Assembly: GCF_000686025.1 (NCBI RefSeq)
Contig: NZ_JMLQ01000005.1
Coordinates: 124,001-188,000, forward strand
Reading direction: 5' to 3'
DNA: 64,000 nt
Source of the DNA: Rhodococcus sp. UNC23MFCrub1.1
Lineage (GTDB): Bacteria; Actinomycetota; Actinomycetes; Mycobacteriales; Mycobacteriaceae
Shown here: piece by piece, positions 40,259 through 46,026 of the stretch
How the letters are laid out: every line of letters starts with the position of its first letter
How positions within the stretch are numbered: position 1 is the stretch's first letter
Position numbers and translations under genes: made by a program
Notes under the pieces: model-generated
What the model saw: the letters and a program-made list of their open reading frames with translations, nothing else
What the model was told of the DNA's origin: nothing
Databases searched by the model: none

Positions 40259-40542
40259 TGCGTTTGCGTTCGTTCTTTTCCTGCCCGTCTCGGCCGTCCT
40301 CCGGCGCGGGCGAGGTGGTGATTCTGTGCGCGGCGAGTGTTTCCGGGTGGGTCCACTGGCACCGTCCCCAAACCTCGGAGCAGACGCGGCCCGAGCACCG
40401 TCCGACGCCGAGGGTGCGCCGAAACCTTTACGTACTCTTCGAGATGTCTTGACCAACGATGCGCCCCGAGGAGAGACCGGGCGTTCTGCACCGACGAAAC
40501 CGCACAGACCCACACCATCCGTGTCCGCCTGGAGGCTTCACC
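40259..40542 (+). other. Intergenic region upstream of the SulP/carbonic anhydrase gene
   Basis: These 284 nt between the rplI terminator and the SulP start contain no open frame that I believe; the minus-strand frame at 40208-40513 is Arg/Pro-rich and reads like a shadow. A GGAGG ribosome site at 40530-40534 serves the GTG at 40543. The promoter must lie here, but I cannot place -35 and -10 boxes with confidence. Confidence 0.5.
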
Positions 40543-42816
40543 GTGACTGCACAACTCGATCGCTCGTCCCCCGCCGAACCACCCGTACCCGCCCCGAGCC
40601 CCACACCGCGCGACCGGCTGGCGAGCATCGCCCGGTACGACGTGCCCGCGTCTCTCGTGGTGTTCCTGGTGGCGGTACCGCTCTCCATCGGAATCGCGGT
40701 GGCCTCCGGCGCTCCCGTCATGGCGGGCCTCATCGCGGCCGTCATCGGCGGCATCCTCGCCGGTGCGCTGGGTGGGTCCCCGCTGCAGGTGAGCGGGCCG
40801 GCCGCCGGCCTGACCGTGGTGGTGGCCGAGTTGGTGAACCAGTTCGGTTGGCGCATCACGTGTCTCATCACGGTGTTCGCCGGTGTGCTGCAGGTGGTGC
40901 TGGGTCTGAGCCGTATCGCCCGCCAGGCGCTCGCCATCTCGCCGGTGGTGGTGCACGCGATGCTGGCCGGTATCGGTATCACCATCGCGCTGCAGCAGAT
41001 CCACGTGCTGCTCGGTGGGGAGAGCCGGAGTTCCGCCGTCGCCAACATCACGTCTCTGCCTTCGTCGATCCTGAACGCCGAGGCGGCGCCGGTCGCCATC
41101 GGCGGCGTGGTCGTTGCGCTGATGCTGCTGTGGCCGCGCATCACCGGCCCACTCGGTAAGGTCCCCGGCCCGCTGGTGGCCGTGGTCGCGGGAACCGGCC
41201 TCTCACTGGCCTTCTCGATGAACCTCGAACGAATCGATCTGCCCGGCAACCTGATCGAGGCCGTGGAGTTGCCGGCATTCCCGGACGGGCAGTGGGCAGC
41301 GTTCGCGACCGGTGTGCTGACCATCGCGTTGATCGCGAGCGTCGAGAGTCTGCTCTCCGCCGTCGCCATCGACAAGATGCACTCGGGCAGACGCACCAAC
41401 TTCGATCGCGAACTCATGGGTCAGGGCGCCGCCAACATGGTGTCCGGTGTCGCCGGCGGACTGCCCGTCACCGGCGTCATCGTGCGCAGCGCCACCAACG
41501 TCCGATCCGGCGCCCGATCCCCCGCTTCGGCTGTGCTGCACGGTGTCTGGGTTCTCATCTTCTCGGTCCTGTTCATCGGTGTGGTCGAGCTGGTCCCCTA
41601 CGCCGCACTGGCAGGTCTGCTCGTCATGATCGGTGTGCAGCTGGTCAAGCTCGCGGACATCCGCTCGGCGACGAGGACCGGCGACGTGGTGGTGTACGCG
41701 GCGACGGTCGTCGGTGTCGTCACCCTCAATCTGCTCGAGGGTGTGCTGATCGGGCTCGCCATCTCCGTCCTGCTGGTGTTGCGCCGCGTGCTGTGGGCAC
41801 GGGTGCGTGCCGAGCAGCTCACCGAGGACTCCTGGCGCGTCGTGGTGGAGGGATCGCTCAGCTTCCTGTCGCTTCCTCGCCTCACGCGGGTGCTGCAGTC
41901 CGTTCCTGCCGGCCGATCCGTGACGATCGAGCTGACCGTCGACTTCCTCGACCACGCGGTGTACGACGCGCTGCACGAGTGGACGAAGCAGTACGAGGCG
42001 ACGGGCGGCACCGTCGTCGTCGACGAGGTCGGCGCCGTGGACATGGCGTCGGCCACGGCCGGGCCACCGAGACGCATGCCCCACATGCTGTCCGCGCGCA
42101 CGTTCATGCCGTGGTCGCAATGGCAGACCGTCGACAGCCACTCCGGGCCGTTCACCGCCGACGCCGTCACCCCGGCGGCGCTCCGGCCGGTCCTGGCCGG
42201 TGTCGAGGAATACCACCGTCGCAGCGCGTCGTCCATGCGCCCGCACCTCGAGAAGCTGAGCGAGTTCCAGGACCCGGACACGTTCTTCCTGAGTTGTGTC
42301 GACTCGCGCGTGCTGCCGAACACGATCACCAGCGCCGGACCCGGAGACCTCTTCACCGTCCGCAACATGGGCAATCTGATCCCGGTCGGTGATCCGGACA
42401 CGTCGCTCGAGGCCGCTCTGGAGTACGGCGTGAACACGCTCGCCATCAGTTCCGTCGTGGTCTGCGGGCACTCCGGCTGTGGAGCCATGCGGGGGCTGCT
42501 CGCGGACGCCCACGACGCCGACGGGGTGGTGGGTGAGTGGCTCTCGCACGGCCGGGCGAGCCTCAGTGCGTTCCGGAGTGGCCACCCCGTCGCGCGGGAT
42601 GCCGCGGAGCTGGGGTTCTCCGAGATCGACCAGCTCGCCATGGTGAACGTGGCAGTACAACTGCAGACCCTGTCGCGTCACGCCGTGGTGGGCAAGGCGG
42701 TCGCCGAGGGGAGGCTCAAGGTGGTCGGACTCTTCTTCGACATTCCCACGGCGCGGGTCGTGCTCGTCGACGCGGCCTCGGTCACCGAGCTCGATCAGGA
42801 GCAAGCGCAGAACTGA
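40543..42816 (+). CDS. SulP-family anion transporter fused to beta-carbonic anhydrase
   Basis: Membrane protein of 757 residues. Residues about 25-410 are a SulP transporter (VPLSIGIAVASGAPVMAGLI, GSPLQVSGPAAGLTVVVAEL, ASVESLLSAVAIDKM). About 425-515 is a STAS domain (ELTVDFLDHAVYDALHEW). The C-terminal part (about 545-745) is a beta-carbonic anhydrase with zinc ligands C585, H643 and C646 and the catalytic D587-R589 dyad (CVDSR; CGHSGCGAMRG), so it should be active. The likely job is bicarbonate uptake or export with interconversion to CO2. It resembles Rv3273 of M. tuberculosis in design. The GTG start has GGAGG upstream. It separates rplI from dnaB. Confidence 0.92.
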   Translation: MTAQLDRSSPAEPPVPAPSPTPRDRLASIARYDVPASLVVFLVAVPLSIGIAVASGAPVMAGLIAAVIGGILAGALGGSPLQVSGPAAGLTVVVAELVNQFGWRITCLITVFAGVLQVVLGLSRIARQALAISPVVVHAMLAGIGITIALQQIHVLLGGESRSSAVANITSLPSSILNAEAAPVAIGGVVVALMLLWPRITGPLGKVPGPLVAVVAGTGLSLAFSMNLERIDLPGNLIEAVELPAFPDGQWAAFATGVLTIALIASVESLLSAVAIDKMHSGRRTNFDRELMGQGAANMVSGVAGGLPVTGVIVRSATNVRSGARSPASAVLHGVWVLIFSVLFIGVVELVPYAALAGLLVMIGVQLVKLADIRSATRTGDVVVYAATVVGVVTLNLLEGVLIGLAISVLLVLRRVLWARVRAEQLTEDSWRVVVEGSLSFLSLPRLTRVLQSVPAGRSVTIELTVDFLDHAVYDALHEWTKQYEATGGTVVVDEVGAVDMASATAGPPRRMPHMLSARTFMPWSQWQTVDSHSGPFTADAVTPAALRPVLAGVEEYHRRSASSMRPHLEKLSEFQDPDTFFLSCVDSRVLPNTITSAGPGDLFTVRNMGNLIPVGDPDTSLEAALEYGVNTLAISSVVVCGHSGCGAMRGLLADAHDADGVVGEWLSHGRASLSAFRSGHPVARDAAELGFSEIDQLAMVNVAVQLQTLSRHAVVGKAVAEGRLKVVGLFFDIPTARVVLVDAASVTELDQEQAQN

Positions 42817-43386: not shown

Positions 43387-46026
43387 GTGGCAGTCGTGGA
43401 CGATCGGGGAACGAACGACTACCAGGGGCCGTCCGAGGCGCCCGGTGAGGACTTCGGTCGTCAGCCCCCTCAGGACATGGCTGCCGAGCAGTCCGTTCTG
43501 GGCGGCATGCTGCTCAGCAAGGACGCCATCGCGGACGTCCTGGAGGTTCTGCGTCCCGGTGACTTCTACCGCCCGGCCCACCAGATGGTCTACGACGCCA
43601 TCCTCGATCTGTACGGCCGCGGCGACCCCGCCGACCCGGTCACCGTCTCCGCGGAGCTCGAACGGCGCGGCGAGCTCAAGCGCATCGGCGGCCCGCCCTA
43701 CCTCGTCACGCTGACGCAGACGGTCCCCACGGCGGCCAACGCGTCGTTCTACGCCGAGATCGTCGTCGAGAAGGCGATCCTGCGTCGCCTCGTCGAGGCC
43801 GGTACGCGCATCGTCCAGTTCGGCTACGCGGGCGCGGACGGTCAGGACGTGTCCGAAGTCGTCGACCGGGCTCAGGCCGAGGTGTACGAGGTCACCGAGC
43901 GGCGTACCGCGGAGGACTTCGTCCAGCTCGAGGAACTGCTGCAGCCCACGATGGACGAGATCGACTCCATCGCCAGCCGCGGCGGCATGTCGAACGGTGT
44001 CCCCACCGGCTTCACCGAGCTCGACGAGGTGACCAACGGTCTGCACCCGGGCCAGATGATCATCGTCGCGGCAAGGCCTGGTGTGGGCAAGGCGCTCGCC
44101 CTCGACACGCCGTTGGCGACGCCCACTGGGTGGACGACGATGGGTGAAGTCGAGGTCGGGGACCATCTCATCGATGCGTCCGGATCTGCGACTCGGGTCG
44201 TCGCTGCGACCGACGTGATGGTCGGTAGGCCGTGTTACGAGGTCGAGTTCTCCGACGGCACGGTCATCGTGGCCGACGCGGAGCATCAGTGGCTCACGGA
44301 TACCCGCGCATCGCGAAAGTCGGCGCAGGCTGCGGCTGCTCGATACAACAGGACCAAGAACCAAGGAACGTTCGCCGAGGTGCGCACCACCGAGCAGATC
44401 GCCGGTTCGGTCAGGTGCGCGACCAAGGACGCTCGACTGAATCACTCGGTGACCAACGCGAAGCCGATCCAGCGTCCGGACGCGGTCCTTTCCGTCCCTC
44501 CCTACACGCTGGGCGCGTGGTTGGGGGACGGCACCAGCGCTTGCGCGCAGATCACCTCCGACGATCCCGAGATCATTGCTCGGATCGAAGGTGAGGGGTT
44601 GGTGGCTGTTCGATCCGCAGCTGCTGAGTTGCGATACTCGATTCAGCTTCCCGCACCCGAACCTGTACCGGCCAAGTTCTGTACGGTGTGCGGAAAACGC
44701 TTCGTGCCGTTCTCTTCTCAGGTGCGTACCTGCGGCCGTTCATGCGGTGGCCGGGCTCGGTTCCAAGATGACGTGGTGGATCAGCCGCTGTGCCCGCTCT
44801 GCGGTGAGCTGTGCACCGGACTTCGGATGTGCCAGAAGTGCCGAAACGCCACGGGGACGGTGCAAGCTCGCCTCCGAACACTCGGTGTGTTGAACAACAA
44901 GCACATTCCCATGGAGTACCTCAGGTCGTCGGAGTCGCAGCGGCGAGCTGTACTCGCCGGCCTGCTGGACACCGACGGGACCGTCACGGCAGGCGGATCC
45001 GCGCAGTTCAGTGTCACCAATGAGCGACTGGCACTCGACGTCGAGGAACTCATCGTCAGTCTGGGGTACCGAGTACATCGATCGACGAAGAGGGTGGCAG
45101 GACGCACCGAGGCGTCGTCGACGGCGTTCACACTCACCTTCTCGACCGATGATGTGGTCTTCGGTCTGCGTCGAAAGCAGTTGCTGCACAAAGAGCGTCG
45201 TGCCTCGTCGAATGTGTCCAGGTCTTCGAGTCGCTTCATCGTCGACGTTCGTCGCGTCGACTCGGTGCCGGTCAGATGTGTCGAGGTCGATAACACGGAC
45301 CACCTCTATCTCGCCGGTCGTTCGATGGTGCCGACACACAACTCCACTCTCGGAATGGATTTCATGCGCTCGTGCTCCATCAAGCACGGCATGGCCAGCG
45401 TCATGTTCTCGCTCGAGATGAGCCGCACCGAGATCGTCATGCGTCTCCTCTCCGCCGAGGCCAAGATCAAGCTCGGCGACATGCGCTCGGGAAAGATGAC
45501 GGACGACGACTGGACCCGCCTCGCCCGCAGGATGAGCGAGATCAGCGAGGCACCACTCTTCGTCGACGACTCCCCCAACCTCACCATGATGGAGATCCGC
45601 GCCAAGGCGCGGCGACTCAAGCAGCGACACGATCTCAAGCTCATCGTCATCGACTACCTGCAGCTGATGTCGTCCGGCAAGAAGGTGGAGTCGCGTCAGC
45701 AGGAGGTCTCGGACTTCTCGCGATCGCTGAAGCTGTTGGCCAAGGAGCTCATGGTTCCGGTGGTCGCCATCTGTCAGCTCAACCGTGGTCCCGAGCAGCG
45801 CACGGACAAGAAGCCGATGGTCTCCGACCTGCGTGAGTCCGGCTCGCTCGAGCAGGACGCCGACATGGTCATCCTGCTCTACCGTCCGGATGCGACCGAG
45901 CGCGACGATCCCCGCGGCGGCGAGGCCGACCTGATCCTCGGCAAGCACCGCAACGGCCCCACGGCCACCATCACGGTGGCGCACCAGTTGCACCTGTCGC
46001 GCTTCGTCGACATGGCGCGCGGCTAG
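43387..46026 (+). CDS. dnaB: Replicative DNA helicase DnaB, interrupted by an intein
   Basis: Replicative helicase that unwinds the fork as a hexamer. The precursor is 879 residues; removal of the intein (residues 236-652) leaves 462 residues, the normal DnaB length. The N-terminal domain has QDMAAEQSVLGGMLLSKDAI and the linker region SNGVPTGFTELDEVTNGLHP. The P-loop is split: AARPGVGK lies before the intein and STLGMDFMRSC after it. Later motifs are VMFSLEMSRTEIVMRLLSAE, LIVIDYLQLMSSGKK (Walker B), VVAICQLNRGPEQR and DLRESGSLEQDADMV. GTG at 43387 is the start. Without splicing the ATPase site cannot form, so replication depends on intein excision. Confidence 0.95.
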   Translation: MAVVDDRGTNDYQGPSEAPGEDFGRQPPQDMAAEQSVLGGMLLSKDAIADVLEVLRPGDFYRPAHQMVYDAILDLYGRGDPADPVTVSAELERRGELKRIGGPPYLVTLTQTVPTAANASFYAEIVVEKAILRRLVEAGTRIVQFGYAGADGQDVSEVVDRAQAEVYEVTERRTAEDFVQLEELLQPTMDEIDSIASRGGMSNGVPTGFTELDEVTNGLHPGQMIIVAARPGVGKALALDTPLATPTGWTTMGEVEVGDHLIDASGSATRVVAATDVMVGRPCYEVEFSDGTVIVADAEHQWLTDTRASRKSAQAAAARYNRTKNQGTFAEVRTTEQIAGSVRCATKDARLNHSVTNAKPIQRPDAVLSVPPYTLGAWLGDGTSACAQITSDDPEIIARIEGEGLVAVRSAAAELRYSIQLPAPEPVPAKFCTVCGKRFVPFSSQVRTCGRSCGGRARFQDDVVDQPLCPLCGELCTGLRMCQKCRNATGTVQARLRTLGVLNNKHIPMEYLRSSESQRRAVLAGLLDTDGTVTAGGSAQFSVTNERLALDVEELIVSLGYRVHRSTKRVAGRTEASSTAFTLTFSTDDVVFGLRRKQLLHKERRASSNVSRSSSRFIVDVRRVDSVPVRCVEVDNTDHLYLAGRSMVPTHNSTLGMDFMRSCSIKHGMASVMFSLEMSRTEIVMRLLSAEAKIKLGDMRSGKMTDDDWTRLARRMSEISEAPLFVDDSPNLTMMEIRAKARRLKQRHDLKLIVIDYLQLMSSGKKVESRQQEVSDFSRSLKLLAKELMVPVVAICQLNRGPEQRTDKKPMVSDLRESGSLEQDADMVILLYRPDATERDDPRGGEADLILGKHRNGPTATITVAHQLHLSRFVDMARG
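44092..45342 (+). mobile_element. Class 3-type intein with LAGLIDADG homing endonuclease in the DnaB P-loop
   Basis: A 417-residue in-frame intein between K235 and S653 of the precursor (GVGK / ST). It starts ALALDTPLATPTGWTTMG, so position 1 is Ala, not Cys or Ser. It carries W302 in block B (EHQWLT), C631 in block F (VRCVEVD) and T650-H651-N652 at the end (VPTHN): the W-C-T set known for class 3 inteins, which use the block F Cys as first nucleophile. Two LAGLIDADG motifs, LGAWLGDG (D381) and LAGLLDTDG (D530), are intact. Between them are two Cys clusters (432-453 and 469-485). Third-codon bases look less GC-rich than in the flanking exteins, suggesting foreign origin. Confidence 0.93.

Follow-up and report, generated by a model that had tools for sequence, protein, structure and literature searches.

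We identified a class 3 intein in the ATP-binding loop of DnaB, the main DNA-unwinding enzyme of the soil bacterium Rhodococcus sp. UNC23MFCrub1.1, within a stretch of 64,000 nucleotides of its genome (contig NZ_JMLQ01000005.1; hereafter the window). The analysis confirmed an ordinary class 3 DnaB intein whose ends are fixed to the residue and whose endonuclease looks intact. The intein belongs to a family that is frequent among related bacteria; the only thing that sets it apart is a Cys-rich, probably zinc-binding cassette lying between the two motifs of the endonuclease.

The dnaB frame (43387-46026, + strand, 879 amino acids) is interrupted between GVGK and ST by an in-frame insert of 417 amino acids, which corresponds to DnaB residues 236-652 (nucleotides 44092-45342). 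The Lys of GVGK is residue 235; HN occupies positions 651-652 and is followed by Ser653 (STLGMDF), which completes the Walker A motif. The product was assigned to DnaB by TIGR00665 (E 2.3e-155, residues 27-877) and by Pfam DnaB and DnaB_C, and it is the only full DnaB of its genome, in which a second frame has a 64-position DnaB_C match (E 3.2e-5). The insert is open throughout, none of its 2000 codon-position shuffles stayed open (0/2000), and its third-position G+C content is 0.74 versus 0.89 and 0.91 in the exteins. Twelve of the 37 genomes of the genus possess dnaB without an intein match, and the 13 dnaB loci retrieved from these genomes (two of them from a single genome) all show an uninterrupted GVGK/STL sequence; therefore, the intein truly begins at Ala1 and ends at Asn417. 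The first residue is thus neither Cys nor Ser; a Cys or Ser there would, according to the first-pass annotation of this DNA, have refuted its own reading. On contig C1 of genome G025, two intein-free dnaB copies (L101 and L102) lie ~59 kb apart on opposite strands with identical 120-base P-loop regions, which represents either a duplication or an assembly artefact.

With Ala at position 1, the intein has no Cys, Ser or Thr nucleophile there, and W67, C396 and T415 (DnaB W302, C631 and T650) align with solved class 3 inteins, the class being defined by Trp B:12, Cys F:4 and Thr G:5 (PMC3196547; papers are cited here by PMC number, each for a part of its text). Among solved chains, phmmer placed DnaB inteins from Mycobacterium smegmatis and M. 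chimaera closest (PDB 6rix, 6riy and 6bs8; E 3e-42 to 1e-44), and the modelled splicing domain fits the M. smegmatis DnaB intein at 1.1 Å over 125 residues. We are highly confident that the insert is a class 3 intein in the P-loop of chromosomal DnaB. The bounds, the first Ala, the final THN and W302, C631 and T650 given by the first-pass annotation were all found as described when the frame was re-read, and its class 3 assignment was borne out by the sequence, the fold and the published definition. Its wording of an "uncommon" splicing route is misleading, as the intein family is frequent in the order, with matches in 170 of 397 genomes at E 1e-10 (not necessarily full-length or in DnaB).

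The intein DnaBi1 of M. smegmatis (PDB 6bs8, 6own) shares with the window intein the DnaB P-loop site, A1, C48, D62, H65, W67, the block F Cys, THN and Ser+1, with 66% identity over the 125 structurally aligned residues, but consists of 139 residues without an endonuclease, whereas the window intein carries a LAGLIDADG endonuclease and the Cys-rich cassette. The DnaB-1 intein of M. chimaera (PDB 6rix, 6riy) is likewise of class 3 (PMC7664689) and is the best phmmer match (E 1e-44), although its solved chains of 145-146 residues are too short to include an endonuclease. By homology, splicing would start with the attack of Cys396 on the bond between Lys(-1) and Ala1, after which the N-extein would be transferred to Ser+1, Asn417 would cyclise with His416, and the rejoined GVGKST loop would be able to bind ATP. 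It is reasonable to suppose that the helicase is inactive until spliced, since 417 residues separate the Lys of the Walker A motif from its Ser and since unspliced DnaB of M. smegmatis, obtained by mutation of the block F Cys of DnaBi1, is reported to be non-functional (PMC7360933).

The endonuclease of the window intein has both LAGLIDADG motifs (GAWLGDG and LAGLLDTDG) with their acidic residues intact. On the intein alone, Pfam LAGLIDADG_3 was just above its cut-off (4.8e-5; 24 versus 22.5 bits) and Hom_end just below (20.5 versus 21.1 bits), and the fold is that expected of a LAGLIDADG intein homing endonuclease. PI-SceI is a two-motif LAGLIDADG intein endonuclease with class 1 splicing, and its DNA-recognition region differs from that of the window intein. 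In comparison with the intein of Rhodococcus sp. Leaf247 (L004), dN/dS (the ratio of nonsynonymous to synonymous divergence) is 0.10 in the endonuclease and 0.03 in the cassette. Judging from these sequence features, the endonuclease is likely to be active; it would cut intein-free dnaB at the P-loop codons, after which the intein would be copied in.

We parsed 92 inteins: that of the window, 46 of 47 loci from named genomes, 19 loci of the genus and 26 of 28 order-level loci. The named loci were retrieved by patterns that included splicing-block and cassette peptides; 46 of the 47 parse as A1...PTHN inteins, one of which (L037) lies outside DnaB and, although counted in the 92, is absent from the 91-row tree. 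Overlapping, duplicate or contig-truncated loci were dropped (L001-L003, L051, L053-L055, L065, L075-L080, L104-L111), and viral loci and empty alleles (L081-L103) were left out by design. Also outside the 92 are L050 (not in DnaB; G1, Ser at position 48) and L118, which by eye reads GK/ALSLKT...PTHN/STLA. Within the genus, 25 of 37 genomes gave intein matches, including the window's own genome and one of the same species; the match in G017 is limited to 20 residues close to the end of a contig, with no C-extein match. DnaB P-loop inteins closely resembling that of the window, inserted at the same site and carrying the cassette, occur in other Actinomycetota, for example in Rhodococcus (L004, L007), Nocardia (L009) and Mycolicibacterium (L012); they have 416-417 amino acids and 70-97% identity over 417 residues, differing from the window intein only in sequence.

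Eight Cys of the cassette are conserved (197, 200, 214, 218, 234, 237, 247 and 250) and a ninth (241) is variable. In the window, they are spaced C-x2-C-x13-C-x3-C and C-x2-C-x9-C-x2-C, and because of this spacing the cassette is probably a two-finger, zinc-binding module. Double-zinc-ribbon families of Pfam matched it weakly, below cut-off, and no named family exceeded its curated cut-off; phage sequences gave no match at E 0.05, and fold searches with the cassette alone returned no informative match. Searches of an open-licence library of papers gave no description of the cassette, nor any paper that links an intein and a homing endonuclease with zinc, DnaB and Rhodococcus.

Among the 91 DnaB inteins, two fingers (7-8 of the 8 Cys) are present in 52, one finger (3-6 Cys) in 7 and none in 32; the order-level loci being the best-scoring of the 170 genomes, these counts are no frequencies and are biased to full-length forms. 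L064 resembles one merged finger. On the 91-row tree (a quick method, with long branches and no root), the cassette states require 21 changes. The cassette-less L029 (333 amino acids) groups with L005 and L006 (417), and the cassette-less L066-L069 (334-335) group with L061 (416); in these places, the absence of the cassette is, as read from the tree, recent. All 18 relatives checked outside chromosomal DnaB (six in dCTP deaminase genes, ten phage or viral, namely 5 of the 10 IMG/VR loci and five named phages, and L037 and L050) have at most one Cys in the cassette region, and the simplest reading is therefore that the cassette was gained inside the DnaB lineage and then lost repeatedly.

What could such a module do? 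One alternative is that it is a zinc or redox sensor tuning splicing rather than a homing part, and the eight conserved Cys would suit this role, as would the inhibition of M. smegmatis DnaBi1 by zinc via its catalytic Cys (PMC7360933). However, the cassette is placed between the LAGLIDADG motifs, the splicing residues are kept in cassette-less forms, and both acidic residues are kept by 51 of 52 inteins with the two-finger cassette versus 16 of 39 without it (Fisher 3e-10, ignoring relatedness). We regard the sensor as improbable. Tentatively, and with clearly less than even confidence, we propose that the DnaB P-loop class 3 inteins of Actinomycetota carry an undescribed kind of LAGLIDADG endonuclease with a lineage-gained twin Cys4 zinc module that contributes to DNA recognition and whose repeated loss would be an early step of decay toward the mycobacterial mini-inteins.

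A further question is whether the intein has moved recently. In some near pairs of the genus, the window and L004 among them, the inteins are closer than the exteins (ratio 0.34-0.61 versus a median of 1.46). Between the window and L004, the block from intein codon 151 to C-extein codon 30 has a synonymous divergence of 0.11, versus 0.35 outside it (0 of 5000 permutations gave so low a block), and divergence climbs stepwise along the C-extein; such a tract would fit recent homing or recombination. Eight other pairs were read: L114/L116 resembled this pair in its C-extein gradient, divergence was low at the start of the intein in L058/L064, and no further comparable tract was seen among the rest of the eight.

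Several points weigh against recent homing. The low block was delimited only once the data had been seen. The pair of the window and L005, whose inteins are far apart, is also low in the first 30 C-extein codons (0.17) and in the last 60 N-extein codons (0.20-0.26), and homologous recombination without cleavage could yield the same tract. A general co-conversion footprint around the insertion was not seen among intein-bearing pairs of the genus; relative synonymous divergence (pS) in the first 30 C-extein codons was 1.06 for 275 +/+ pairs, 0.97 for 66 -/- pairs and 1.24 for 288 +/- pairs, the pairs being non-independent. Lastly, the intein tracks the extein in third-position differences across 19 genus members (Mantel r 0.90), and most of the intein history may therefore be vertical, that is, long co-inheritance with loss.

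The same correlation would suit an intein whose splicing domain works while its endonuclease is already dead, leaving only vertical inheritance, as in the mini-intein forms, and indeed one or both acidic residues, or the whole domain, are lost in 24 of the 91 DnaB inteins. In the window, however, both acidic residues remain, dN/dS is low in the endonuclease and lower still in the cassette, and the local tract of low divergence is present; a dead endonuclease is thus rather unlikely here, and an active one remains our preferred reading.

The first-pass annotation had also suggested a phage helicase gene as the source of the element. A recent acquisition of this kind might find a model in Brevibacterium phage Rousseau, the first-ranked phage, which carries a class 3-type intein (A1...THN) at GK/T of a DnaB-like gene, and in a published analysis that places mycobacterial DnaB-b inteins together with the TerL1-c/e inteins of phages (PMC5050341). 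Yet the Rousseau intein is only 34.7% identical over the full length, the best segments of ten IMG/VR loci are 28-41% identical, and all 356 phage records matching intein residues 1-77 are below 60% (the best among the matches listed, 56.8%). In a 37-row tree (a careful method with chosen rows, which did not include TerL1-c/e and class 1 inteins; branches are long and the bootstrap not settled), a branch (91/88) separates the 21 chromosomal DnaB rows, within whose group L037 falls, from all ten phage or viral rows. The nearest phages being too distant, we reject a recent phage helicase source, to which we assign a very small probability. That class 3 inteins stem, at depth, from phages is a hypothesis published by Tori and Perler (according to PMC3196547), which these data neither show nor exclude.

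Cys48 may provide a link to regulation. In M. smegmatis DnaBi1, oxidation links this residue to the catalytic Cys and splicing halts; the redox partner is termed non-conserved in the part of the paper cited here (PMC6195587). In contrast, the DnaB P-loop relatives that we examined do conserve Cys48: it is kept in 92 of 92 parsed inteins and in 46 of 46 alignment rows, as well as in 14 of the 18 other relatives. By analogy, it would give the window intein the same potential oxidation switch.

Related inteins were also observed elsewhere. In Pseudonocardia acaciae, the P-loop (GSGK/S) of another ATPase (Pfam AAA_10) houses an intein closely related to that of DnaB (L037:3001-4185), and the family has therefore moved between P-loop genes. 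Six class 3-type inteins of order genomes (L144-L149; for example, starting at L148:1243 on the + strand and L144:1589 on the - strand) lie at LEGK/SSLG and are 35-38% identical to that of the window; their hosts read as dCTP deaminase genes, with Pfam DCD confirmed in both that were scanned (L144 and L148). As LEGK/SSLG resembles the DnaB junction GVGK/STLG, mimicry of the homing site is possible. In eight loci (L015, L022, L025, L032, L039, L042, L046 and L048), the C-extein has 652-653 residues versus the usual ~227 and a normal DnaB end; the extra ~426 amino acids, near-constant in length, are probably a second DnaB intein.

The features of the window intein and its exteins are listed in Table 1. 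The upstream neighbour, a frame at 40459-42816 (+), looks from its sequence like a fusion of a SulP-type anion transporter with a beta carbonic anhydrase.

Table 1 Features of the interrupted dnaB gene (positions in the window)
Feature	Position	Strand	Basis
N-extein, DnaB residues 1-235, ending ...ARPGVGK	43387..44091	+	Pfam DnaB N-terminal domain, 9.4e-35
Class 3 intein, 417 amino acids, A1 ... THN	44092..45342	+	
Splicing domain, N-terminal half, intein residues 1-75, blocks A and B	44092..44316	+	phmmer to 6bs8/6rix; structural fit
Codon of Cys48, which corresponds to the redox partner in M. smegmatis DnaBi1	44233..44235	+	alignments; function from PMC6195587 (in part)
Block B, D62-x-x-H65-x-W67 (W67 = DnaB W302)	44275..44292	+	
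First LAGLIDADG motif, PYTLGAWLGDG, residues 137-147	44500..44532	+	
Cys-rich cassette, residues 175-259, flanked by the LAGLIDADG motifs	44614..44868	+	
Second LAGLIDADG motif, AVLAGLLDTDGTV, residues 286-298	44947..44985	+	Pfam LAGLIDADG_3
Splicing domain, C-terminal half, residues 381-417, blocks F and G	45232..45342	+	
Cys396 codon (DnaB C631), block F nucleophile	45277..45279	+	
T415-H416-N417, block G	45334..45342	+	
C-extein, from Ser+1 through the stop codon of DnaB	45343..46026	+	

With regard to splicing, the window adds a well-bounded example of the known class 3 DnaB intein and no new mechanism. DnaB relatives of the window type retain the endonuclease, unlike the described mycobacterial counterparts without one, M. 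smegmatis DnaBi1 (PMC7360933) and mycobacterial DnaB-b (PMC5050341), and shorter forms, down to 141 residues, occupy the same site. The cassette is the sole part of the intein that might be new, and since a single genus holds full, finger-deleted and empty alleles, its role in homing is directly testable.
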